A stretch of DNA of 59,183 bases from Clostridia bacterium (lineage in GTDB: Bacteria > Bacillota > Clostridia > Oscillospirales > RGIG577). Below the pieces are notes generated by a model. The model did no database searches, was not told where the DNA came from, and saw nothing but the letters and a program-made list of their open reading frames with translations. Position numbers and translations under genes: made by a program. Of the stretch, positions 13,303-48,323 are shown piece after piece (position 1 is the first letter of the stretch; each line of letters opens with the position of its first letter). The stretch covers positions 1 through 59,183 of the forward strand of contig JAFQZS010000015.1 of NCBI GenBank assembly GCA_017405765.1. The letters are read 5' to 3'.

Positions 13303-13325
13303 ATATATTAATAGCATAATATATT

Positions 13326-13582
13326 TGATAGAGGTGCGTTTTTTATCAGTACTCGCGTACGGATACCGAAAGATCTTACGCCGCGACGAAAGGAAAAAAC
13401 GCCGAAGGGGATGCTTTTTTCGGACGCATTGCCCTGGGTGTACGGTCAACAGCCGTGCAACTGTCATCGAAAACAGATGGAGAGCTATCAGCTTCTGGTT
13501 TAATGTCGTTTGCCGTATTTTTTTTGCGGTTTCATGCTTTACATTTTACTAGAAAGCCGCCGGTTTTTCAACCGGTTTTTTT
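13326..13582 (+). promoter_or_regulatory. Lysine riboswitch (L-box) with expression-platform terminator
   Basis: The aptamer spans about 13326-13490. TGATAG at its start pairs with CTATCA at its end (P1). Conserved L-box blocks are visible: GAGGTGCG, AGTACTCG, GCCGAAGGGGATGC, the GGTGTACGGTCAA/CAGCCGTGCAACTGTCA pair and GGAGAGCTATC. The length of 165 nt fits the class. A terminator stem CCGGTT/AACCGG with seven T follows at 13560-13582. Lysine binding is known in this class to favour the terminator, so this should switch off asd, dapA, dapB and the ACT gene when lysine is plentiful. Confidence 0.96.
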
Positions 13583-13660: not shown

Positions 13661-14662
13661 ATGAAAAAGTACAATGTAGCAGTTGTCGGCGCGACCGGCA
13701 TGGTAGGAAGAACCTTTTTAAAGGTGCTTGAAGAGAAAAAGCTCCCCGTTGAGAATTATTATCTTTTCTCCTCTTACCGCTCGGCAGGCAAAAAAATCGA
13801 GTTCATGGGCAAGGAATACACGGCTATCGAGCTTACCGAAACTGCAATGGACGGTAAAGACATAGATATCGCGCTCTTCTCCGCAGGCGGCAGCACCAGC
13901 GAAAAATTCGCGCCCATCTTTGCGAAAAAAGGCGCGGTCGTTATCGACAACTCCTCTGCATGGCGCATGAACCCGGAGGTTCCGCTCGTAGTGCCGGAAG
14001 TAAATCCCGACGATCTGAAGTGGCACAAGGGCATTATCGCAAACCCCAACTGCTCGACCATTCAGGCTGTGGTTGCATTAAAGCCGCTCGATGAAAAATA
14101 CGGCATAAAGCGCATCGTATATTCGACATACCAGGCAGTATCCGGCGCAGGTCTTGCCGGCTGGATGGACCTTGAAGAGGGACAGAAGGGCAATCCCCCC
14201 AAGAAGTTCGCTCACCCCATCTACAACAACTGCCTCCCCCACATCGACGTATTCTTAGACAACGGATACACGAAGGAAGAGGAAAAGATGATAAAGGAGA
14301 CGAGAAAGATACTCGGCCGCCCCGACCTCAAGGTAACGGCTACGACCGTAAGAGTTCCCGTATTCAACAGCCATTCCGAATCCATCAACGTCGAGTTCGA
14401 GCGTCCCTTTGACCTTGCCGAATTAAAGGACGTCCTTGCAAAGGCTCCCGGCATAGTCGTTGAAGACGATCCCGCAAACAACGTATACCCGCTTGCTATA
14501 AACGCAACGGGACACGACGAAGTGTTCGTAGGAAGAATACGCCGCGACGAATCGGTAGAAAACGGCGTCAACATGTGGGTAGTTGCCGACAATATAAGAA
14601 AAGGCGCGGCAAGCAACGCCGTTCAGATAGCCGAGACCATGATAAACAACGGCATAATATAA
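13661..14662 (+). CDS. asd: Aspartate-semialdehyde dehydrogenase
   Basis: 333 aa from the ATG at 13661, which follows GGAGGGTCAATT; an in-frame start 16 codons upstream lacks a site. It makes aspartate semialdehyde from aspartyl phosphate using NADPH. The N-terminal nucleotide-binding motif is VVGATGMVGRTFLKVL. The catalytic cysteine is in NPNCSTIQAVVAL (near residues 130-142) and the active-site histidine region is HSESINVEF (near 244-252). It is the first gene of the L-box-controlled operon. No aspartate kinase catalytic gene is present here. Confidence 0.97.
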   Translation: MKKYNVAVVGATGMVGRTFLKVLEEKKLPVENYYLFSSYRSAGKKIEFMGKEYTAIELTETAMDGKDIDIALFSAGGSTSEKFAPIFAKKGAVVIDNSSAWRMNPEVPLVVPEVNPDDLKWHKGIIANPNCSTIQAVVALKPLDEKYGIKRIVYSTYQAVSGAGLAGWMDLEEGQKGNPPKKFAHPIYNNCLPHIDVFLDNGYTKEEEKMIKETRKILGRPDLKVTATTVRVPVFNSHSESINVEFERPFDLAELKDVLAKAPGIVVEDDPANNVYPLAINATGHDEVFVGRIRRDESVENGVNMWVVADNIRKGAASNAVQIAETMINNGII

Positions 14663-20562: not shown

Positions 20563-22284
20563 TCACTTTTTGGTTTTTGTTTTTCTTATATCCTCTTTCG
20601 TGCGCTCAGCCATACTTAGCATCTCCCGGGCATTGACTAAAGAAAGCGTTGTTATCTTATCAGTGCCCGTTATCCGCGCGATCTCGCTTGCGCGCTCAAC
20701 GTCGGATAATTCTTTCACGGTCGTTCTTGTAGTTTTCCCGTCGGTGCTTTTTTCAATATAATAATGACTGTCGGCCATAAGCGCAAGCTGCGCCAAATGG
20801 GTCACGCACAATACTTGTTTATATCCCGATATCTCATACAGCGCATTTGCCACCTTCACGGCCGCGCGCCCGCTTATGCCCGCGTCTATCTCGTCAAACA
20901 CGAGCGTGCCCGTGGGCTCGCTTTCAAAAAGCACGCTTATCATGGCAAGCATTATTCGTGACAATTCTCCTCCCGACGCTATCTTTGCAAGCGGTTTTAA
21001 CGCTTCGCCGGGGTTGGGCGATATGAGAAACTCTAAAACATCGGCGCCGCTTTGAGTGAAATCACAAACATCTTCGGCCGTTTTTATATCCGCCTTGAAT
21101 CTTACCTTCGCCATATCAAGATAAGTAAGCTTATCCGTTATCTCAGCTTCCAGCCGTTTCGCCGTTTTGCTGCGCAGAGCGGAAAGCTTTTGTGCCGAAG
21201 CGACAAGCTCCTTTCGCGCCTCATTAAGTTCCCCTTTCAAGCGCTCGCGCTTCGCATCGGCAAATACGATATCGTCAAGCTTATTTTTGCATTCTTCCAA
21301 AAATGCAAGAATATCTTCTATGCTGCCGGCATATTTTCTTTTAAGGCGCGATATCTCGTCCTGACGTGCTATGATATCGTCGATATCCTCGTCGGAAAAA
21401 TCAAATTCATCTTTTTTCGAGGCTGCCGACATCGCTATATCCTCTATCTCAAGGCACACCGACTCAATGCGCTCGGCAAGTTTTTGTGTCTCCTCATCAT
21501 CGCGTGCCAAAATCATAAGCTCGTTTTTCGCCTCATATGCGGCGTTATATGCGCTCACCGCGCCGTTCTCGCCGCCGTATAAGAGATCATATGCCGATTC
21601 TATCGCGGAAACAAACTTTTTCGCGTTGGAAAACTTTCGTTTCTGCGCCGCAAGCTGCTCGTCCTCTCCTGGCGTAAGCTCGGCCGCTTCTATTTCTTCA
21701 ATACAGAATTTAAGATAGTCCACACGGCGCATTTTTTCATGCTCGTCCATATCCAAAGCGTTATACTCTTTTTCAAGCGCCTTATATTTTTTATATGTAT
21801 CGAGATAATGAGCCGATACCGTTTTGTCCTTTGAAAATCGGTCTAAAAGCGTCAGATGGCGTTTTTCGTCAAGAAGGCTGCTTGCATCATGCTGACCGTG
21901 TATATTTATGATATACGGCATTATGCTTTTAAGTACCAAAAGCGTTGTCGGACGCGAATTTATGCGCACGCTGTTTTTCCCGTCGCCGAATATCTCTCTT
22001 TCAACCAAGATGCGCCCGTCTTCATCCGGGCTTATTCCCGCCTCAGCCATACGCTCGGCCGCACTTTCGGGCAGAGAGCCGATTATCGCGCTCACAAAGG
22101 CAGACTTCTTCCCCGTGCGTATAAGCTCTCTTGGTGTACGTCCGCCCAAAAGCATATTTATTGAATCTATTATTATTGATTTTCCTGCTCCCGTTTCTCC
22201 GGTAAGCACATTCATCCCGCCCGAAAAGTCGATATCGAGCGACTCTATCAGCGCGACATTCTCAATATGAATAGCATAGATCAT
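20563..22284 (-). CDS. recN: DNA repair protein RecN
   Basis: 573 aa SMC-like ATPase of double-strand-break repair. Walker A is TGETGAGKSIIID (near residues 29-41). A long coiled-coil centre spans about 160-370. The signature and Walker B lie in GGELSRIMLAM (near 444-454) and GTLVFDEIDAGISGRAA (near 465-481). It lies 17 bases after argR; tlyA, nadK, argR and recN are all in one direction, the usual Firmicutes order with nadK in it. Confidence 0.97.
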   Translation of the reverse strand: MIYAIHIENVALIESLDIDFSGGMNVLTGETGAGKSIIIDSINMLLGGRTPRELIRTGKKSAFVSAIIGSLPESAAERMAEAGISPDEDGRILVEREIFGDGKNSVRINSRPTTLLVLKSIMPYIINIHGQHDASSLLDEKRHLTLLDRFSKDKTVSAHYLDTYKKYKALEKEYNALDMDEHEKMRRVDYLKFCIEEIEAAELTPGEDEQLAAQKRKFSNAKKFVSAIESAYDLLYGGENGAVSAYNAAYEAKNELMILARDDEETQKLAERIESVCLEIEDIAMSAASKKDEFDFSDEDIDDIIARQDEISRLKRKYAGSIEDILAFLEECKNKLDDIVFADAKRERLKGELNEARKELVASAQKLSALRSKTAKRLEAEITDKLTYLDMAKVRFKADIKTAEDVCDFTQSGADVLEFLISPNPGEALKPLAKIASGGELSRIMLAMISVLFESEPTGTLVFDEIDAGISGRAAVKVANALYEISGYKQVLCVTHLAQLALMADSHYYIEKSTDGKTTRTTVKELSDVERASEIARITGTDKITTLSLVNAREMLSMAERTKEDIRKTKTKK

Positions 22285-22301: not shown

Positions 22302-22757
22302 TTATTCTTTTAACCTTGCGGCCTGCTCTTTTGAAAACTTGACCGCGTCGTCATCGCTGCGAAAGACGACAAATATCGTATCGTCGCCTGCCAGCGTTCC
22401 AAGTATCTGCGAAATGTTCATTGAATCTATGGCGGCAGCCGCACCTGAAGCAAGACCGGTCAAAGTCTTTATCACCACCATATTTCCCGCGCAGTCGATA
22501 TTTGTCACACATTCGCGAAATATCGCCTCAAGCTTTTTAAGCCTCTTGTCCTCTGATTCCGCTCCCCGCGACGAATACTTATATCGTCCCGAAGCGTCAA
22601 GAACCTTGAATATACGCAGTTCCTTTATATCTCTCGATATAGTTGCCTGAGTGACCAAAAAGCCTTCGTCCTTCAGTCTTTGGGCAAGCTCTTCCTGCGT
22701 CTCAACGCTGTATTTGTCTATAAGCTCCAAAATTTTAAGCTGTCGTTTGTTTTTCAA
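22302..22757 (-). CDS. argR: Arginine repressor
   Basis: 151 aa, standard ArgR/AhrC size. The N-terminal winged helix (residues 1-65) has LAQRLKDEGFLVTQATISRD, the DNA-recognition region. The C-terminal domain that forms hexamers and binds arginine contains the GTLAGDDTIFVVF segment (near 121-133). The start is TTG 22757 with AAAGGGTG in front, five bases after the nadK stop. In Firmicutes this gene sits between tlyA and recN, as here. Confidence 0.95.
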   Translation of the reverse strand: MKNKRQLKILELIDKYSVETQEELAQRLKDEGFLVTQATISRDIKELRIFKVLDASGRYKYSSRGAESEDKRLKKLEAIFRECVTNIDCAGNMVVIKTLTGLASGAAAAIDSMNISQILGTLAGDDTIFVVFRSDDDAVKFSKEQAARLKE

Positions 22758-22762
22758 AATGA

Positions 22763-23620
22763 CTACACCCTTTCTCGCAGCTTTTGGCGCAGAATAGTAT
22801 AAAAATTGCGGTCCTTCACGCGTATAAGCTTAAGCATAAGCTTTGAACGCGATACCTGTACGACGTCTCCTATCATAAGCTTTCCGTATTTATTTCCGTC
22901 TGCCGACAGATACGCTTCCCTGTCCCCTTCTCCCGTTACTTTTATCTGAAACGTGGACATTATGGACATAACTATCGGTATGGAAACAAGCGAATGAGGA
23001 CAAACGGGAGTTATCACAACGCTCGGAGTCCCCGGCTCCATAACGGGGCCGCCCGCGGAAAGCGAATATGCCGTGGAGCCTGTGGGAGTCGCCACTATCA
23101 TACCGTCGGCGCGGAACTGATTTACAAGTATGCCGTCCGCGTAAAACGACAGATCTACAGGGTGCGCGATCAAACTCTTTGAGATAACTGCTTCGTTCAA
23201 AGCCGTTATGCGATTTATCGTTTTGCCGTCTCTTATTACCGAGATATCGAGCATCGCGCGCTCGTCAAATTCAAACCTGCCTGCAAATACCTTTTTAAGC
23301 TCCTCCGTCTCGTCGATCTCAAGCTCAACGAGATAACCCAGATTGCCGATATTTATCCCAAGCATGGGAATGTCTGCCGAAGCCGCTTCTGCCGAAGCCG
23401 CTATAAGCGTACCGTCGCCGCCCAGAGTTATTATAAGGTCGATTTTCCCTTTTACTTTGTTTAGGGGAGCATATTTTATATCGGAGGCGCCTACCTCCGT
23501 TTTATGCATAGGATCGAGATATACCTCCCCGCCGGCTTCCTCTATCGTCTTTGTTATGGAAAGCACGGCTTCCCGCCACTTGAGCTTGCCGGTATTAGGA
23601 ATTATAAAAGCTCTTTTCAA
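22763..23620 (-). CDS. nadK: NAD(+) kinase
   Basis: 285 aa from TTG 23620, which follows GGAGG by seven bases; the longer in-frame start at 23635 would overlap that ribosome site. It phosphorylates NAD to NADP. The invariant GGDGT motif (ITLGGDGTLIAA near residues 63-74) and the second signature TGSTAYSLSAGGPVMEP (near 175-191) are both intact. It lies between tlyA and argR in the same direction. Confidence 0.95.
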   Translation of the reverse strand: MKRAFIIPNTGKLKWREAVLSITKTIEEAGGEVYLDPMHKTEVGASDIKYAPLNKVKGKIDLIITLGGDGTLIAASAEAASADIPMLGINIGNLGYLVELEIDETEELKKVFAGRFEFDERAMLDISVIRDGKTINRITALNEAVISKSLIAHPVDLSFYADGILVNQFRADGMIVATPTGSTAYSLSAGGPVMEPGTPSVVITPVCPHSLVSIPIVMSIMSTFQIKVTGEGDREAYLSADGNKYGKLMIGDVVQVSRSKLMLKLIRVKDRNFYTILRQKLRERV

Positions 23621-23640
23621 AAAAATGCCTCCCAACAGAT

Positions 23641-24453
23641 TTATGCATTTTTGTCTTTTTCAAAAGCCATGTGAGACTCATGCACCAGCTTTTCTATATC
23701 GGCCTCGAAGCTTGCTTCGGGCGCGCGCTTTTCTATATACATAAGGTATTCTATGTTGCCTTCGGGACCCCTTATCGGAGAGTGGTACACCCCGAGTATG
23801 CTAAAGCCTGTTTCCTGCGCTTCACAGAGCACCTTTTTTATTACCTGTTCGTGAACGCGCATATCACGCACAACGCCTTTTTTCCCCACAGCTTCGCGTC
23901 CGGCCTCGAACTGAGGCTTAATAAGGCAAACGGCGCGCGCCCCGTCTCTTAGGGTCCTGTATAACACGGGGAGCACGAGCTTAAGCCCGATGAACGAAAC
24001 GTCCACCGTGCCGAAATCAAGTCTGCGCTCAAGCACGCTGTCGTCGAAATAACGTATATTCGTCCGCTCGATATTCACAACTCTCGGATCGGTGCGAAGC
24101 TTCCATGCAAGCTGGCCGTACCCCACGTCAACGGCGTACACCTTTTTTGCGCCGTGCATAAGCATACAGTCGGTAAAACCGCCGGTCGAAGCGCCTATAT
24201 CTATGGCGTATACGTCTGTCAGATCTATATTGAAGCGGTCTATTGCCCCTTTAAGCTTAAGTCCGCCCCTGCTTACAAATTCAAGCTTTTTCCCTCTTAT
24301 CTCTATTTGGGCGTTCTCATCTACGCTCTGCCCCGGCTTATCTGTTCTTTCGCCGTTTACAAATACTATGCCTTCCATTACAAGGGCTCTGGCTTTTTCG
24401 CGGCTTTCTGCAAAGCCCTTCTCGAACACGAGAATATCTATCCTTTTTTTCAC
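23641..24453 (-). CDS. tlyA: TlyA-type rRNA 2'-O-methyltransferase
   Basis: 270 aa. The N-terminal S4 RNA-binding domain (residues 4-65, RIDILVFEKGFAESREKARA) is followed by an FtsJ-like methyltransferase with motif I AIDIGASTGGFTDCML (near 83-98). Family members 2'-O-methylate cytidines of rRNA; older names call them haemolysins. The start is GTG 24453 behind AAAAGGATACTTAAA, one base after the oapA stop. The oapA-tlyA-argR-recN order matches the known OLE locus. Confidence 0.94.
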   Translation of the reverse strand: MKKRIDILVFEKGFAESREKARALVMEGIVFVNGERTDKPGQSVDENAQIEIRGKKLEFVSRGGLKLKGAIDRFNIDLTDVYAIDIGASTGGFTDCMLMHGAKKVYAVDVGYGQLAWKLRTDPRVVNIERTNIRYFDDSVLERRLDFGTVDVSFIGLKLVLPVLYRTLRDGARAVCLIKPQFEAGREAVGKKGVVRDMRVHEQVIKKVLCEAQETGFSILGVYHSPIRGPEGNIEYLMYIEKRAPEASFEADIEKLVHESHMAFEKDKNA

Positions 24454-24454
24454 T

Positions 24455-25165
24455 TTAAGTATCCTTTTTTGCGGCTCTTATACGGCCGCTTTTCTTTTTG
24501 TCGCCTTGTCTGTTCAGTTTTTTGGGCGCGGCAACGCCTAAAATGCTCTCTAAAACGAGCCCCACGTAATATATTATCGTATTGGAATAACCGAGCGCAA
24601 TGTTTTTCCCAAGCGCTTTGCCCCCTATCGTGAGCGCGGCAACGATGCTCGTAAGCACCAGATTTATAAGCACGCTGTTTTTCTCCCATGAAAACGACGC
24701 GGCAAAATATCCTACGATAACTACTACTGCGCCGCCGCTTATTATTCCCGTAATATCGCCTATTACGTCGTTGCAGAAGTTTGAGACCTTGCCTGCCTGC
24801 GCGATAATCTTGAGCGCGTACTTCGCTCCCGGCACCTTTCTTGCGGCCATCGAATGAAACGGAGTGGAATTTGCCGCCGTCACCGCCGTTCCGACTATAT
24901 CGAAGACTATTCCCAAAAGTATAAAAATAAGCAGTATAACGAGCGCTCCCGCAATCGATACCCCCGAAAGCGCACGGTTTGAAACGAAAGAAAGACAAAA
25001 CGAGGCTAAAAGAGCAACCGCTACTACTATGATCGCCCACCGGCTGTCTGACTTTCGCTTAGGCGAGGCAAGAGAACGTATTATCTTTTTATGTTTTTTT
25101 ATCCTGTCTCTTATGCCAAAACTGCCCGTATTATCTTCGTCGGTACCTTCATTTGATGATTCCAA
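24455..25165 (-). CDS. oapA: OLE-associated membrane protein OapA
   Basis: 236 aa, starting at TTG 25165 behind ACGGAGGAGC. It has basic ends (residues 20-42 and 215-236) and four hydrophobic segments (near 45-62, 66-92, 138-160 and 165-190). The conserved GIVFDIVGTAVTAANSTPFHSMAARKVPGA region (near 83-112) recalls DUF21/CNNM-type membrane domains. The protein known as OapA in Bacillus halodurans is a membrane protein encoded just downstream of the OLE RNA and binds it. The position here, 32 bases after the OLE RNA and directly before tlyA, matches. The Arg/Lys-rich ends would suit RNA binding. Confidence 0.88.
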   Translation of the reverse strand: MESSNEGTDEDNTGSFGIRDRIKKHKKIIRSLASPKRKSDSRWAIIVVAVALLASFCLSFVSNRALSGVSIAGALVILLIFILLGIVFDIVGTAVTAANSTPFHSMAARKVPGAKYALKIIAQAGKVSNFCNDVIGDITGIISGGAVVVIVGYFAASFSWEKNSVLINLVLTSIVAALTIGGKALGKNIALGYSNTIIYYVGLVLESILGVAAPKKLNRQGDKKKSGRIRAAKKDT

Positions 25166-25197
25166 TTAAAGCTCCTCCGTTATATATTAAGTAAATA

Positions 25198-25812
25198 ATA
25201 GTGGCGGTATACAGAGTAAATCTTGCGGCTTTGGTCAAGTTGGATTTCCCATGCTGCTGCCCGCTGTCGCCAAACGGGCGGTTTCCCATTAAAGCCTCAT
25301 ATGCCGCGTCGCCGACGGCATGACTTGATTGCCACTCAGTCCGCACTTCAATCCCCCGCATACCTCAAAAAAGAACAGCCTAGAGGTTTTCCCAAACGGT
25401 CTTATCTGCTTTTTATCCTCTTTTGCAAACAGGGTTTCAGGCTGCATTAGCCCCATGCCTTCGGCCAAAGGCTTAGGGCCTGTCTTCCGTTCACCGCTGT
25501 TCACTCAAGGCAGGCTACTCTGCACACAGCAAAACAACCGCAATGCAGGTTTAATCCCGGTTCGTAATCTGTCCGGTCAACTAATGATCGTGTATAGGCA
25601 GACTACAAAGTCGGGTCTCCATGATAAAAGGGTCAGATCTGTATGCCATTACAGGCTGCCCTTAAATCCAACACTCGTGGTGTTACTCCCAGCACCCACC
25701 CAAAACTGGGCGTTTTAAGCAAGCACAAGAAGCTTCATCGATATGCCCTTTAACGGATTTTTAGCCCCGTCTTCAAAGCAAAAAGCTCCGACTAAGAATA
25801 CTGCGCCACTAT
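25198..25812 (-). ncRNA. ole: OLE RNA (ornate, large, extremophilic)
   Basis: A 615-nt stretch with no supported protein frame. Its 5' end ATAGTGGCG (25812-25804) pairs perfectly with CGCCACTAT (25206-25198) at its 3' end, giving a 9-bp closing helix. OLE RNAs are about 600 nt and lie immediately upstream of oapA, with tlyA, argR, recN downstream and xseA, xseB, ispA upstream: the order here. Internal inverted repeats are also visible. OLE RNA is known to go to the membrane with OapA and to affect stress tolerance. Identification rests on locus order, length and end pairing; the family covariance model was not run. Confidence 0.88.
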
Positions 25813-25825
25813 ATCTTATTGTTGT

Positions 25826-25854
25826 ATTGTATCATATATCATATTTATAATCCA
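25826..25854 (-). promoter_or_regulatory. Possible promoter of the OLE RNA
   Basis: TACAAT on the minus strand lies about 14 bases before the first base of the closing helix; the -35 match (TGGATT, 17-bp spacer) is weak. Since a strong terminator lies just upstream (25885-25915), an own promoter is expected. Confidence 0.4.
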
Positions 25855-25884
25855 TACTTTTCGAAAAAGATAAATAAAAAAATA

Positions 25885-25915
25885 AATGCGGGGAAAGACG
25901 CCGCTTCCCCGCATT
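25885..25915 (-). terminator. Terminator between the PAP2-like gene and the OLE RNA
   Basis: AATGCGGGGAA pairs perfectly with TTCCCCGCATT around a nine-base loop and is followed on the minus strand by TTATTTTTTTAT. It separates the upstream isoprenoid genes from OLE transcription, at least in part. Confidence 0.88.
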
Positions 25916-25928
25916 CGTTTTGGTTATC

Positions 25929-26384
25929 TCATGCCAGCATAAATATAAGAGCAACGGCTATGCCCAAAAGAGCGCCTGCTCCCACCTGCGCCGGCGTATG
26001 GCCCAATATCTCTTTAAGGCGCATCTGCATAAACTCGGGCTCCGTATCTTCCCATGCGTCCATCATCTTGTTTAAAACCTTGGCTTGCTCGCCGGCAGAG
26101 CGCCTTACGCCCGCAGCATCGTACATTACAACGCACGCCAAGGCAGCCGCAAGCGCAAACTGCGAAGATGCAAATCCGTCTTTGAAGGCTATGCATACGG
26201 CAAGCGCAGCCACGAACGAGGAATGAGAGCTCGGCATACCGCCCGAATCCATAAATCGCCGAAAGTCGAAGCTCTTTTCCGTGACGAGCGTTATGACCAT
26301 CTTTATGACCTGGGCTATGAACCATGACAGAAAGGCGGCGTCAAACGCAATATTAGAAGTTATGAAGACAAAAAATTCCTTCAT
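25929..26384 (-). CDS. Divergent PAP2 family membrane protein
   Basis: 151 aa, the usual length of the divergent PAP2 (DivPAP/YuiD-like) family. Phosphatase-like motifs are GGMPSSHSSFVAAL (near residues 48-61) and the DAAGVRRSAGEQAKVLN segment (near 89-105), with four to five membrane helices. PAP2 enzymes remove phosphate from lipid or isoprenoid pyrophosphates; the activity of this divergent branch is not established. It sits between ispA and the OLE RNA, suggesting a prenyl-lipid link. GGGAGGCAAAC precedes the start. Confidence 0.9.
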   Translation of the reverse strand: MKEFFVFITSNIAFDAAFLSWFIAQVIKMVITLVTEKSFDFRRFMDSGGMPSSHSSFVAALAVCIAFKDGFASSQFALAAALACVVMYDAAGVRRSAGEQAKVLNKMMDAWEDTEPEFMQMRLKEILGHTPAQVGAGALLGIAVALIFMLA

Positions 26385-26430
26385 GTTTGCCTCCCGTAAA
26401 TGCGCAAATAATTACACCTAACGATTATTC

Positions 26431-27315
26431 TCAATAATCCCTGTTCAAAAGAAAATCGGTGAGATACTGTAAAAATTCATTGTCCGGTATTTCCTTTAAA
26501 CAATCCTTTGCTTTATTAGTTACTTCCGTAAGCTTTTTCTTTGCTCCGTTCACGCCGTAGAAGGTCACATACGTGCTCTTATTGCTCTTTTCGTCGCGTC
26601 CTACGGCCTTTCCCAGCTTTTCGGTGCTGCCCTCAACGTCGAGGATATCGTCCTTTATCTGAAAACCGAGACCTATATGTCCCGAATACTCCGTTGCGGC
26701 GTCATAAAGCTTGCCCTCGCATACGCCGGCAGCTATACAGCCCATCTGAACGGAGGCTCTTATCATAGCGCCCGTCTTCATCTTATGTAGCTTGTCAAGC
26801 TTCTCTATCGGTATTTTAAGCCCCTCGGATTTTAAGTCTATTACCTGACCTCCCGTCATGCCTTCGCTTCCGGCAGCCTCGGCGAACACCTTTATCGCCT
26901 TTACCACGCGGTCGGCGGGGATCTTGTCCGATGACTTCGTTGCGTATTCAAACGCCTTCAAAATAAGCGCGTCGCCCGCCAAAAGCGCCATCGCCTCGCC
27001 GAACACCTTATGGTTCGTGGGCCTTCCGCGTCTCAGATCGTCGTCGTCCATGCAGGGCAGATCGTCATGTATGAGCGAAGCCGTATGCAGCATTTCAAGC
27101 GCTGCCGCAAAAGGCATCGCAGCGTTTATGTCGCCGCCCATCACGCGGCAGAATTCAATGCAGAGCATAGGCCTTATGCGCTTTCCGCCCGCCGTAAGGC
27201 TGTAGATCATCGCGTCGTTGATCTCTTTATGATAGCCCTCGATAGGCGCTATGACACAATCAAAATATTCCTTCAGCATCTGCGAATAAAAATCAAATCT
27301 GTTCTCGGGAGTCAT
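26431..27315 (-). CDS. ispA: Farnesyl/polyprenyl diphosphate synthase
   Basis: 294 aa short-chain trans-prenyltransferase that condenses IPP with allylic diphosphates. The first Asp-rich motif is HDDLPCMDDDDLRRGRPTNH (near residues 78-97) and the second is FQIKDDILDVEG (near 219-230). Two residues between the Asp pairs of the first motif fit the bacterial farnesyl synthase type. The gene follows xseB by 30 bases; xseA, xseB and ispA in this order are standard in Firmicutes. Confidence 0.95.
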   Translation of the reverse strand: MTPENRFDFYSQMLKEYFDCVIAPIEGYHKEINDAMIYSLTAGGKRIRPMLCIEFCRVMGGDINAAMPFAAALEMLHTASLIHDDLPCMDDDDLRRGRPTNHKVFGEAMALLAGDALILKAFEYATKSSDKIPADRVVKAIKVFAEAAGSEGMTGGQVIDLKSEGLKIPIEKLDKLHKMKTGAMIRASVQMGCIAAGVCEGKLYDAATEYSGHIGLGFQIKDDILDVEGSTEKLGKAVGRDEKSNKSTYVTFYGVNGAKKKLTEVTNKAKDCLKEIPDNEFLQYLTDFLLNRDY

Positions 27316-27345: not shown

Positions 27346-27570
27346 TTATTGTTCATCGTCGGCGGCGCCGCTCGCGGTCCCTTCTTCCGAAAGAAGCATC
27401 CTCACTTTGAGCTGAGCCTCATCAAGAGTCTTTTTGCACTGCTTTGAAAGCGCCGCACCCTGCTCAAACAGCTTTATCATATCGTCAAGCGGAAGATCAC
27501 CCCTTTCCAGCGCTTTTACTATCTCGTCAAGTTTTTTTATATTCTCCTCAAAGCTTATCTTCTTAGCCAT
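27346..27570 (-). CDS. xseB: Exodeoxyribonuclease VII small subunit
   Basis: 74 aa from the ATG at 27570, which has GAGAGG nine bases upstream; an in-frame ATG three codons earlier is also possible. The mostly helical sequence SFEENIKKLDEIVKALERGD is the XseB signature, followed by LPLDDMIKLFEQG. It forms exonuclease VII with several XseB per XseA. It overlaps the end of xseA, which couples their translation. The acidic/Ala tail is not conserved in the family. Confidence 0.95.
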   Translation of the reverse strand: MAKKISFEENIKKLDEIVKALERGDLPLDDMIKLFEQGAALSKQCKKTLDEAQLKVRMLLSEEGTASGAADDEQ

Positions 27571-28801
27571 CGTTTCCATCCTCTCTGTCGGGCTTTTTTA
27601 TGACCTTCACGGTACGCGCCTCAATACTCAGGCGGTCAAGATATACTTTTATGTCGTCTCCGGGACTTATATCGTTCTCGGAGCGTATCACGCGCCCCTG
27701 TGCATCAGTCGTGACAGAATATCCCCGTTCGAGCACCGCCATGGGATCGAGCGCATGAAGCTTTTTTGACAGCGCGTCATGCTCGTGAACGCGGCTTTTA
27801 AGCAGAGCGTCGAGCGCATGAGTCATCTTGTCCTCCAAATGGGACAGCATGAGCGTTTTATCCTGAAAGCTCCGCTCGGGATACTTAAATACAGTGCTTC
27901 CCGCAAGTCTTTCGTAAGTATTTTCAAGAAAATCAACTTTCTTTGTAAGCGCCCGGGTCATCGTGCTTTGCGCCTTATAAAGATAATTATATATATCGTC
28001 AAAATTCGGAACGGCCAGCTCCGCCGCCGCAGAAGGCGTAGGCGCGCGCAGGTCCGAGACAAAGTCGCATATCGTAAAATCGGTCTCATGCCCTACGGCC
28101 GATATGACCGGTATCTGAGACGCCGCAACCGTCCTTGCAAGCCCCTCGTCGTTAAAAGCCCACAGCTCCTCTATCGAGCCGCCTCCGCGTCCTATTATTA
28201 TCGTATCGCAGAGCTTGCCCGCGTTAAAATAATTCACTCCTGCTATAAGCTCCAAAGGCGCCTGCGGCCCCTGAACGAGCGCGGGATAGACCAAGACCTC
28301 GCAGAGAGGAAATCGTCTCCCCAAAATATTTATCATGTCTCGAAGCGCGGCGCCCGTCGGCGATGTTACTATGCCGATACGCACGGGCATTCGCTTTATT
28401 TTGCGCTTTTTCGCAGGATCGAAAAGTCCTTCGTCGGAAAGCTTCTTTTTAAGCTGTTCAAAAGCGAGATACAAACTCCCCTCTCCTTCGGGAGTGAGCC
28501 GATCTATATAAAGCTGATACTGTCCGTCTCGCTCAAAGACGGATACGCGGCCGCCCGCTATGACCTTCATACCGTTCTCTGGCCTGAAGGCAAGCTTAGA
28601 CGCGCTTGAACGGAACATGACCGCGCGTATCAGCGCGCCGTCGTCCTTTAACGACATATATATATGACCCGACGAATGTATCTTGCAGTTCGATATCTCG
28701 CCGCTTACGAATACATTCGAAAGCACGGGGTTTTTATCAATAAGCAGCTTTATATATTTATTTAACTGTGTTACGCTAAGTATATTTTTTTCCTCAGCCA
28801 C
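27563..28801 (-). CDS. xseA: Exodeoxyribonuclease VII large subunit
   Basis: 412 aa. An N-terminal OB fold (residues 8-105, SVTQLNKYIKLLIDKNPVLS) binds single-stranded DNA. The catalytic domain has GIVTSPTGAALRDMI (near 143-157), IIGRGGGSIEELWAFNDE (near 200-217) and SAVGHETDFTICDFVSDLRAPTPSAAA, all family hallmarks. A coiled-coil stretch (270-350) precedes the C-terminal GYSV motif. Its end overlaps xseB; its start is one base after the Kae1-like gene. Confidence 0.96.
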   Translation of the reverse strand: MAEEKNILSVTQLNKYIKLLIDKNPVLSNVFVSGEISNCKIHSSGHIYMSLKDDGALIRAVMFRSSASKLAFRPENGMKVIAGGRVSVFERDGQYQLYIDRLTPEGEGSLYLAFEQLKKKLSDEGLFDPAKKRKIKRMPVRIGIVTSPTGAALRDMINILGRRFPLCEVLVYPALVQGPQAPLELIAGVNYFNAGKLCDTIIIGRGGGSIEELWAFNDEGLARTVAASQIPVISAVGHETDFTICDFVSDLRAPTPSAAAELAVPNFDDIYNYLYKAQSTMTRALTKKVDFLENTYERLAGSTVFKYPERSFQDKTLMLSHLEDKMTHALDALLKSRVHEHDALSKKLHALDPMAVLERGYSVTTDAQGRVIRSENDISPGDDIKVYLDRLSIEARTVKVIKKPDREDGNDG

Positions 28802-28802
28802 T

Positions 28803-29723
28803 TTATTTTCTCCTTACATCGCTAAGATACGCCCCGTAGGCGCAGCCGAGCGCATTGTCGCCCGAAAGTGCGGGCGATACGAAATAAACATAAGAAAGCT
28901 CCCGCTTCATAACTTCCCTTAAATATCCGTTGGCGCTTACGCCGCCTACAAAAAGCACGGGAAGGCGCGTTTTTTGATTGTTAAGCGCCGATAATATCGT
29001 ATCGGTCACGGCTTTTATGGCATAAGATGCTATTTTCTTCGGTTCTTCGCCCGATCCAAACATCTTTTCGATTATATTCTGGTGTCCCGAAAGATTGAAG
29101 TATGTACCTTTTACCGAGGTCTTCACCTTTATATCATCCGTCGGGCATCCCTTCGCAAGCTCTTCAAGCTCTGCGCCGCACGGAAAGCGAAGCCCCAGCA
29201 TAACGCCTGCGCGGTCGATGAGCTGGCCTGCGTTTATGTCGAGCGTGCCGCCGATCCTTATGATATTGAGCGCGCCCATATCGTTTTTTACGTGAAGTAT
29301 TTCACTTGTGCCGCCCGAAAGGTGGACTGTTATAAATTCAGGCATGGAAAGAAGCTCTTTATTTTCATATATCCCCGCCAGCGTATGTCCCGCCTGATGC
29401 GACGTCTCGTAAACCGGTGCGCCCGACGCATACGCCATAGAGCGCGCCGAAGCCGCTCCCGCCAAAAAGCAGGGCATATACGAGCCCTTCTCGTCGCGCG
29501 GGCGTGTGCTTACGCCTATCTTTGCAATGCTCTCCGCCTTCGGAAGCTCGGCTAAAACCTCGGGCAGCGCCCGGGTGTGCAAAAACAGCGCGTCGCTCTG
29601 TCGCAGGCCCGCCTTTCCCTGCTCTACGGGGAGAAGTCTTCCTACGTTCTTATATCCGTCCTCAAAAAGAATGCATACGGACGTGCGGTAGTTGCTTGTA
29701 TCTATACCGATATACGACGCCAT
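28803..29723 (-). CDS. Kae1/TsaD-like domain protein (M22 family), not TsaD itself
   Basis: 306 aa from the ATG at 29723, which overlaps the nusB stop codon as TAATG. The ASKHA-fold start YIGIDTSNYRTSVCI and the HQAGH metal-binding motif (HXXXH, near residues 115-119) match the Kae1/TsaD superfamily. The ATP-binding part has HLSGGTSEILHV (near 137-148) and FVGGVSANGYLREVM. True TsaD usually begins with LGIETSCDET and is about 335-340 aa, so this is likely the shorter Clostridia paralogue of unknown function. It lies between nusB and xseA in one transcript. Confidence 0.8.
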   Translation of the reverse strand: MASYIGIDTSNYRTSVCILFEDGYKNVGRLLPVEQGKAGLRQSDALFLHTRALPEVLAELPKAESIAKIGVSTRPRDEKGSYMPCFLAGAASARSMAYASGAPVYETSHQAGHTLAGIYENKELLSMPEFITVHLSGGTSEILHVKNDMGALNIIRIGGTLDINAGQLIDRAGVMLGLRFPCGAELEELAKGCPTDDIKVKTSVKGTYFNLSGHQNIIEKMFGSGEEPKKIASYAIKAVTDTILSALNNQKTRLPVLFVGGVSANGYLREVMKRELSYVYFVSPALSGDNALGCAYGAYLSDVRRK

Positions 29724-30145
29724 TATGAGTTCTCTTTCTTTTCTCCGAGGCTTCTTATAAGCGTTCCCAAAATTCCGTTTATGAACGCTCCGCATTCCGG
29801 GCTTTCATATTTTTTTGCAAGCTCCACCGCCTCATTTGCCGATACTCCGTTCGGTATGTCGTTCATATATAATATCTCATACATCGACAGCCTAAGTAAA
29901 GACGTACCCACCCGAGATATCCTCTGCTTTGTCCAGCCTTTGGAAAAGCGGGAGATATAATCGTCAAGCTCGCCCTTTTTTTCGCATACTCCGCGCGTTA
30001 CGACTTCAAAATACGACTTTTCAAGCTGCGGTACAGACAGATTTTCATAATAATAATCGAGCACTGAGTCAATGTTTTCTTTCCCCTGAAAACTTATTTC
30101 AAAAAGCACCTTGAACGCTTCTTCGCGTGACAGACGTCTTGACAT
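29723..30145 (-). CDS. nusB: Transcription antitermination factor NusB
   Basis: 140 aa from the ATG at 30145, which is preceded by GGAGGATGAC; an in-frame TTG four codons upstream overlaps that site. The all-helical NusB fold is seen in SREEAFKVLFEISFQ at the start and ISRVGTSLLRLSMYEILYM plus PNGVSANEAVELAKKY (near residues 90-125). NusB with S10 forms the antitermination complex on rRNA operons. It is the first gene of the run nusB, Kae1-like, xseA, xseB, ispA. Confidence 0.96.
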   Translation of the reverse strand: MSRRLSREEAFKVLFEISFQGKENIDSVLDYYYENLSVPQLEKSYFEVVTRGVCEKKGELDDYISRFSKGWTKQRISRVGTSLLRLSMYEILYMNDIPNGVSANEAVELAKKYESPECGAFINGILGTLIRSLGEKKENS

Positions 30146-47968: not shown

Positions 47969-48323
47969 TGGTGGAGGCGAGGAGAGTCGAACTCCTGTCC
48001 GAAAACACATCCCCCCGACTTTCTACGGATATAGCCTGATGTTTTACGTTCCCTACGATGCACGCCGACAGGCGGGCTTACATTTTCGGTAGCTTCATTT
48101 TACATGACGCGGGCAAAGCTTACCGCGTTCACGTTCACCGCTAAATGACGCCCCGTCCCATGCCGCGGTCCTCACGGGCGGGACGGCTGTGCGTAATTAC
48201 GCAGCTAATGCTAATCTGTTAGTTCTGTTAGCGTTTAATTTTAAGGTTGCCCGTTTTTAAATGGCCGGGCGCCATTATCCGCTTATCGAGCTTCAGCATC
48301 CCCGTCGAAACCGGTACGCCCCC
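47969..48323 (-). ncRNA. ssrA: tmRNA (ssrA)
   Basis: 355 nt. The 5' end GGGGGCG pairs with CGCCTCC (one G-U) ahead of a final ACCA, and the tRNA-like part ends GACAGGAGTTCGACTCTCC. The block TACCGGTTTCGACGGGG follows the 5' end. The tag frame on the minus strand (48232-48197) reads GCT AAC AGA ACT AAC AGA TTA GCA TTA GCT GCG TAA, giving ANRTNRLALAA. It begins four bases after the smpB stop, so both partners of trans-translation are adjacent. Confidence 0.97.

Follow-up and report, generated by a model that had tools for sequence, protein, structure and literature searches.

OLE is a large bacterial RNA that resides in the cell membrane, accompanied by partner proteins, and aids cells under stress. 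Of the structured bacterial RNAs for which, to our knowledge, no biochemical job has been established, it is one of the largest. Published work on relatives suggests how such a particle would come about: OLE would be transcribed together with oapA and have its 3' end processed, the RNA would dimerise via L4, L5/L6 and L9.3, and OapA, a relative of CNNM-type metal transporters, would hold it at the membrane. Together with OapB, OapC and bS21, OLE would form a stress- and metal-homeostasis particle that replaces a missing Mg2+ exporter of the MpfA type. The first mapping placed OapC on kink-turn 1a, in which J4a/5 pairs with J5/6 (PMC9723947); this work was biochemical and was performed in H. 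halodurans (PMC9723947, PMC12054373). In the cryo-EM structure, J4a/5 forms kink-turn 1b together with J6/7 (PMC12286853). Wencker et al. make the case that both kink-turns occur (PMC12054373).

We analysed a window of 59,183 nucleotides (contig JAFQZS010000015.1), the whole stretch of DNA to which all coordinates refer unless stated otherwise. The analysis confirmed that it encodes an OLE whose usual partner genes are all present and which is ordinary except for a hairpin specific to its lineage. We put the probability that the RNA is a full-length OLE and would also assemble the usual particle at about 0.9. With the full-length class of Fernando and Breaker (2024), the window OLE shares the full model match, the GGCGAC loops of the P13 region, loops L4, L5, L6 and L9.3, an oapA gene directly downstream and the apparent absence of MpfA; it differs in an added J5/6 hairpin that breaks kink-turn 1a and in its gut-anaerobe host. 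OLE variants 1 (TANB77) and 2 (RF39) belong to the same RNA family and likewise have gut hosts, but their P7–P9 region is shortened or lost and OapB and OapC are largely missing, whereas the window OLE matches the whole model and its genome carries both genes. As in the H. halodurans particle, OapA, OapB, OapC and bS21 are all represented, here as genes. Unlike in H. halodurans, the perfect anti-Shine-Dalgarno mimic of P6 is lost, the 3' strand of P6 reading GACCCUUUUAUC.

Identity of the RNA and its terminal helix

The initial annotation had assigned positions 25198–25812 to OLE and named a covariance search as the check. Indeed, the Rfam model for OLE, RF01071 (curated gathering cut-off, 50 bits), matched with 470.3 bits (E = 6e-135) over model positions 1–616, its full length. 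Location and strand stood as proposed; the ends, given as 25812 and 25198, were slightly short, the match reaching 25825 and 25185.

25185–25825, minus strand: OLE RNA, RF01071 match; likely transcript start near 25819, placed from the -10 box

The Rfam search returned no competing family within 25825–25185, riboswitch families included. The stretch 25198–25812 was correctly described as gene-free: its ORFs are short, overlap the RNA and include no credible protein gene. That it encodes a full-length OLE RNA is, in our assessment, virtually certain. The extremophile label did not fit the host, which is an uncultured gut member of the Clostridia from an anaerobic gut lineage. The host's closest named relatives, 79–80% identical to it in OapA and 94–95% in the RNA, are MAGs of Clostridia from the duodenum of sheep and cattle. 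The 2.17-Mb, 99%-complete genome contains a single OLE copy. A search of 147 genomes, almost all of them at the level of the order, found OLE in 57, and the window OLE has the second-highest score among the 57 OLEs in the order. No similar DNA turned up in phage records.

The proposed pairing of the RNA's ends was also correct: on the minus strand, ATAGTGGCG (25812–25804) and CGCCACTAT (25206–25198) are perfectly complementary over 9 bp, with mismatches flanking both sides. The arms of this helix, P1, are AUAGUGGCG paired with CGCCACUAU, nine base pairs.

25804–25812, minus strand: P1 helix, 5' arm, from complementarity and covariation in 125 OLEs
25198–25206, minus strand: P1 helix, 3' arm, from the same evidence

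The 125 OLEs came from same-order genomes and named Clostridia and were aligned using MAFFT without structure. The nine column pairs were standard in 990 of 1125 cells (88%), as compared to 30–67% when the 3' partner was slid by 1–3 bases. Among the seven inner pairs, 829 of 875 cells were standard, and most of these pairs occurred as several types: pair 4 was G-C in 83 OLEs, A-U in 24 and U-A in 6, and pair 5 was U-A in 91, G-C in 16, A-U in 12 and C-G in 5. The end-to-end helix is real and covaries across the 125 OLEs. Because the Rfam model keeps these positions unpaired, the helix is independent support. We take it to be the published P1 of OLE domain 2, a stem so named in PMC12265935.

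The loops that make dimer contacts in the published structure (PMC12286853), L4, L5, L6 and L9.3, are all kept in the window OLE, as judged by sequence only. The loops putatively assigned to OapB follow them.

25757–25764, minus strand: A-rich loop L4, CUAAAAAU, dimer bridge B1 (PMC12286853); A run nearly invariant
25706–25712, minus strand: loop L5 (CGCCCAG), dimer kissing loop (PMC12286853)
25643–25650, minus strand: loop L6, AAUGGCAU, dimer kissing loop (PMC12286853)
25460–25469, minus strand: loop L9.3 with a GGCC palindrome, dimer bridge B3 (PMC12286853)
25264–25314, minus strand: region holding both GGCGAC loops, putatively P12.2/P13 and the OapB site; helix names by analogy with the literature

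Partner proteins and the proposed particle

Genes for OapA, OapB, OapC and bS21, the four partners backed by published work, are all present in the genome. The gene adjoining OLE, 20 nt from the RNA match, had been called oapA at the outset, and its product is recognisable as OapA from an invariant motif and a CNNM (DUF21) fold.

24455–25165, minus strand: oapA, 236 aa, TTG start after GGAGGAG

Specifically, the motif KVSNFCNDV-GD is common to 23 other oapA products, whose loci nearly all have OLE just upstream. The six best PDB matches of the AlphaFold model (pLDDT 78) were all CNNM/CorC structures, at E values of 0.011 to 0.45, none of which passes 0.001; the Pfam CNNM score was 15.4 bits, below the cut-off of 28.4. 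A family search of the 99%-complete genome yielded no other CNNM protein. As OapA is the only CNNM-like protein found, MpfA appears to be absent, as expected from the published anticorrelation (PMC11332333).

The OapB gene lies between map and infA, and its product matches the PDB structure of OLE-associated protein B (7k9b, E = 1.8e-7); OapB was located by synteny and this match, the KOW-family search of the genome having missed it. OapB matches occurred in 100 of the 147 genomes searched, so such matches are not OLE-specific. OapC, a YbxF-like L7Ae protein encoded between rpoC and rpsL, had YbxF as its best PDB match and aligned with it at the RNA-contacting glycine (GIKQ versus GTKQ), scoring below the NCBIfam equivalog cut-off.

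Based on these genes, the window OLE very probably assembles the usual particle. A stress or metal role is a reasonable expectation, held with less assurance, function beyond particle assembly being taken from studies of H. halodurans. Abundance and membrane location are predicted from family membership.

In a separate observation, family f19 of the same order (L181; G041:C1:59849-60118) has a single in-frame TGA in an rpsL match (G020) and in an OapB match (G041); TGA reassignment and sequence error are the candidate readings.

The J5/6 hairpin and the OapC-binding kink-turn

The joiner between P5 and P6, J5/6, spans about 9 bases in most OLEs versus 22 in the window's genus, lengths that depend on our own alignment boundaries.

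25670–25684, minus strand: extra J5/6 hairpin AACAC-CACGA-GUGUU, lineage-specific, disrupting kink-turn 1a
25733–25742, minus strand: J4a/5, bulged kink-turn strand (AUC GAU GA AG)
25614–25621, minus strand: J6/7 strand UGGAGACC, partner in kink-turn 1b; GAG aligned in 125 of 125 OLEs

Both of the closest relatives carry the hairpin in their OLEs, at 94–95% RNA identity; its stem of 5–6 bp shows no compensatory change among the genus's three sequences. Families f9 and f13 of the order, L111 and Pusillibacter faecalis (AAGCGC-UUUCU-GCGCUU) have J5/6 hairpins as well, longer ones whose sequences are unrelated. We found no mention of such hairpins in the text of Fernando and Breaker (2024). The genus-wide hairpin, predicted to break kink-turn 1a, is what is new here, in a small way.

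Bases were assigned to the two kink-turns in our alignment from the published descriptions. The 1b core (a C-G pair plus tandem G-A and A-G) was found in 125 of 125 OLEs, its second C-helix pair in 121, and the element is intact in the window OLE. The 1a core was available in at most 98 of the 125, or 97 discounting L143, which borrows hairpin bases; the scoring allowed three registers and was thus generous. Kink-turn 1a therefore cannot form in about 28 OLEs and does not define the family. No contiguous register for it exists in any of the genus's three OLEs. Because the hairpin blocks 1a, the most likely arrangement is that OapC of the window's genus binds kink-turn 1b, a placement we consider probable.

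We compared J5/6 with OapC status in the 56 same-order OLEs with usable sequence (OapC present in 41, absent in 10, not called in 5). Kink-turn 1a was possible in 25 and impossible in 16 of the 41 OapC-bearing genomes, and possible in none of the 10 lacking OapC. Hairpins occurred in 8 of these 10 versus 3 of the 41, the 3 being the window's genus. Fisher's test gave p = 7e-4 for 1a capacity and 1e-5 for the hairpin, ignoring the tree; probably only two independent OapC losses are involved, in f9 and part of f13. Absence was called by family search. In f9, the rpoC-rpsL interval is empty, which further supports it; in two f13 genomes rpsL is no longer beside rpoC, and absence there is that of the family search only. 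By gene neighbourhood, most weak matches could be assigned to OapC, lying between rpoC and rpsL; one, in G063, was rejected as YlxQ. The same neighbourhood yielded two OapC-like ORFs which had escaped the family search.

These counts are mixed: with 1a capacity absent in all OapC-less genomes, we dropped the hairpins as simple evidence for 1b. The data fit kink-turn 1b as a universal structural element and a J5/6 under constraint that relaxes on OapC loss. That 1a was possible in 25 of 41 genomes with OapC and 0 of 10 without it hints that 1a may matter to OapC somewhere. OapC might thus still use 1a in the window's genus, in a complex kink-turn that loops the hairpin out at the kink: mutation and probing demonstrated 1a in H. 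halodurans (PMC9723947), and the bases needed might come from the UAA that precedes the hairpin and the GG that follows it. However, 1b is intact in the three OLEs that lack a contiguous 1a register, and 16 OapC-bearing OLEs lack 1a under the same rules. We judge this reading unlikely, though it deserves some weight.

Less likely again is that OapC is retained here for other kink-turn RNAs, without binding OLE. OapC/YbxF has a wider distribution than OLE (PMC9723947), OapC matches also occur in several same-order genomes without OLE, and J5/6 hairpins elsewhere in the order accompany OapC loss; against this, kink-turn 1b is preserved as a canonical GA/AG kink-turn.

Returning to OapC on kink-turn 1b, a broader proposal is offered tentatively, at somewhat below even odds: J5/6-hairpin OLEs may be a recurrent variant without 1a, usually arising in lineages that lost OapC, and the window's genus may have kept an OapC that acts through 1b alone, so that 1a would be dispensable for a working particle. 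Since hairpin and OapC coexist in this genus, against the general pattern, it offers a natural test of both published OapC kink-turn models. Hairpin-blocked OLEs separate these models without engineering, and one occurs in the cultured P. faecalis.

The complete OLE of P. faecalis (400 bits; L188 3483-4147, NZ_AP023421.1 about 200833-201497) is located on pMM59_01, a 504-kb replicon typed as conjugative, in a locus that also holds an oapA-like CNNM gene, dxs and tlyA. The replicon could be a second chromosome instead of a plasmid.

The locus and its transcription

The neighbours initially named (oapA, tlyA, argR and recN on one side; ispA, xseB and xseA on the other) were found as described, with two genes overlooked: one resembling NAD kinase and one of the DUF212 family.

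20563–22284, minus strand: recN-like gene, sequence recognised by eye
22302–22757, minus strand: argR, from a domain scan
22763–23635, minus strand: NAD-kinase-like gene between tlyA and argR, sequence recognised by eye
23641–24453, minus strand: tlyA, FtsJ and S4 domains
25826–25834, minus strand: extended -10 promoter-like element TGATACAAT, consensus match only, 13 bases 5' of P1
25884–25916, minus strand: intrinsic-terminator-like hairpin 3' of the DUF212 gene, 13 pairs, T tail
25929–26384, minus strand: DUF212 (divergent PAP2) gene between OLE and ispA
26431–27315, minus strand: ispA, polyprenyl synthetase
27346–27579, minus strand: xseB
27563–28801, minus strand: xseA-like gene, sequence recognised by eye

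The terminator-like hairpin (25916–25884) sits between the DUF212 gene and OLE; three such sites were found in the region versus 1.4 expected, and the scan reported none between OLE and oapA. Of 125 OLE extracts, 65 contain the pattern TGnTAnnnT within their first 32 bases. A promoter scan of the region did not report the TGATACAAT site, and the two sites it did report are at chance level. The oapA ribosome site lies within about 25 bases of OLE, a few bases past P1. Given the upstream hairpin and TGATACAAT, and no terminator-like site before oapA, OLE is probably the head of an oapA-tlyA transcript and would need a 3'-end cut for release; such processing is reported for H. halodurans (PMC11332333).

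This arrangement, including the ribosome site near P1, would also suit an RNA that is mainly a cis-acting leader controlling oapA-tlyA. We regard that as highly improbable: published work shows particle function, the window OLE matches no riboswitch family, and one genome has its OLE beside murA, away from oapA. In that MAG (L081 3049-3612; L187 1501-2069), oapA occupies a dxs-tlyA locus without OLE, and OLE (466 bits) lies beside murA, so OLE and oapA can be unlinked. The L081 oapA locus was accordingly discarded as an OLE-less case. A decayed pseudogene can be dismissed, as we found no support for it and the second-highest score in the order, the intact conserved loops and the intact oapA all speak against it.

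Further features were recorded in the window. A TsaD-like gene (28803–29795, by eye) lies between xseA and a nusB-like gene in the OLE neighbourhood. The dxs gene, beside tlyA in some other OLE/oapA loci, is missing here (23635–27315), and DXP-synthase matches in the genome were weak only (best, 48.6 bits). A lysine riboswitch (13321–13495, 99.5 bits) precedes a gene at 13661 whose beginning resembles that of an aspartate-semialdehyde dehydrogenase, and a tmRNA gene occupies 47969–48323 (161.7 bits).
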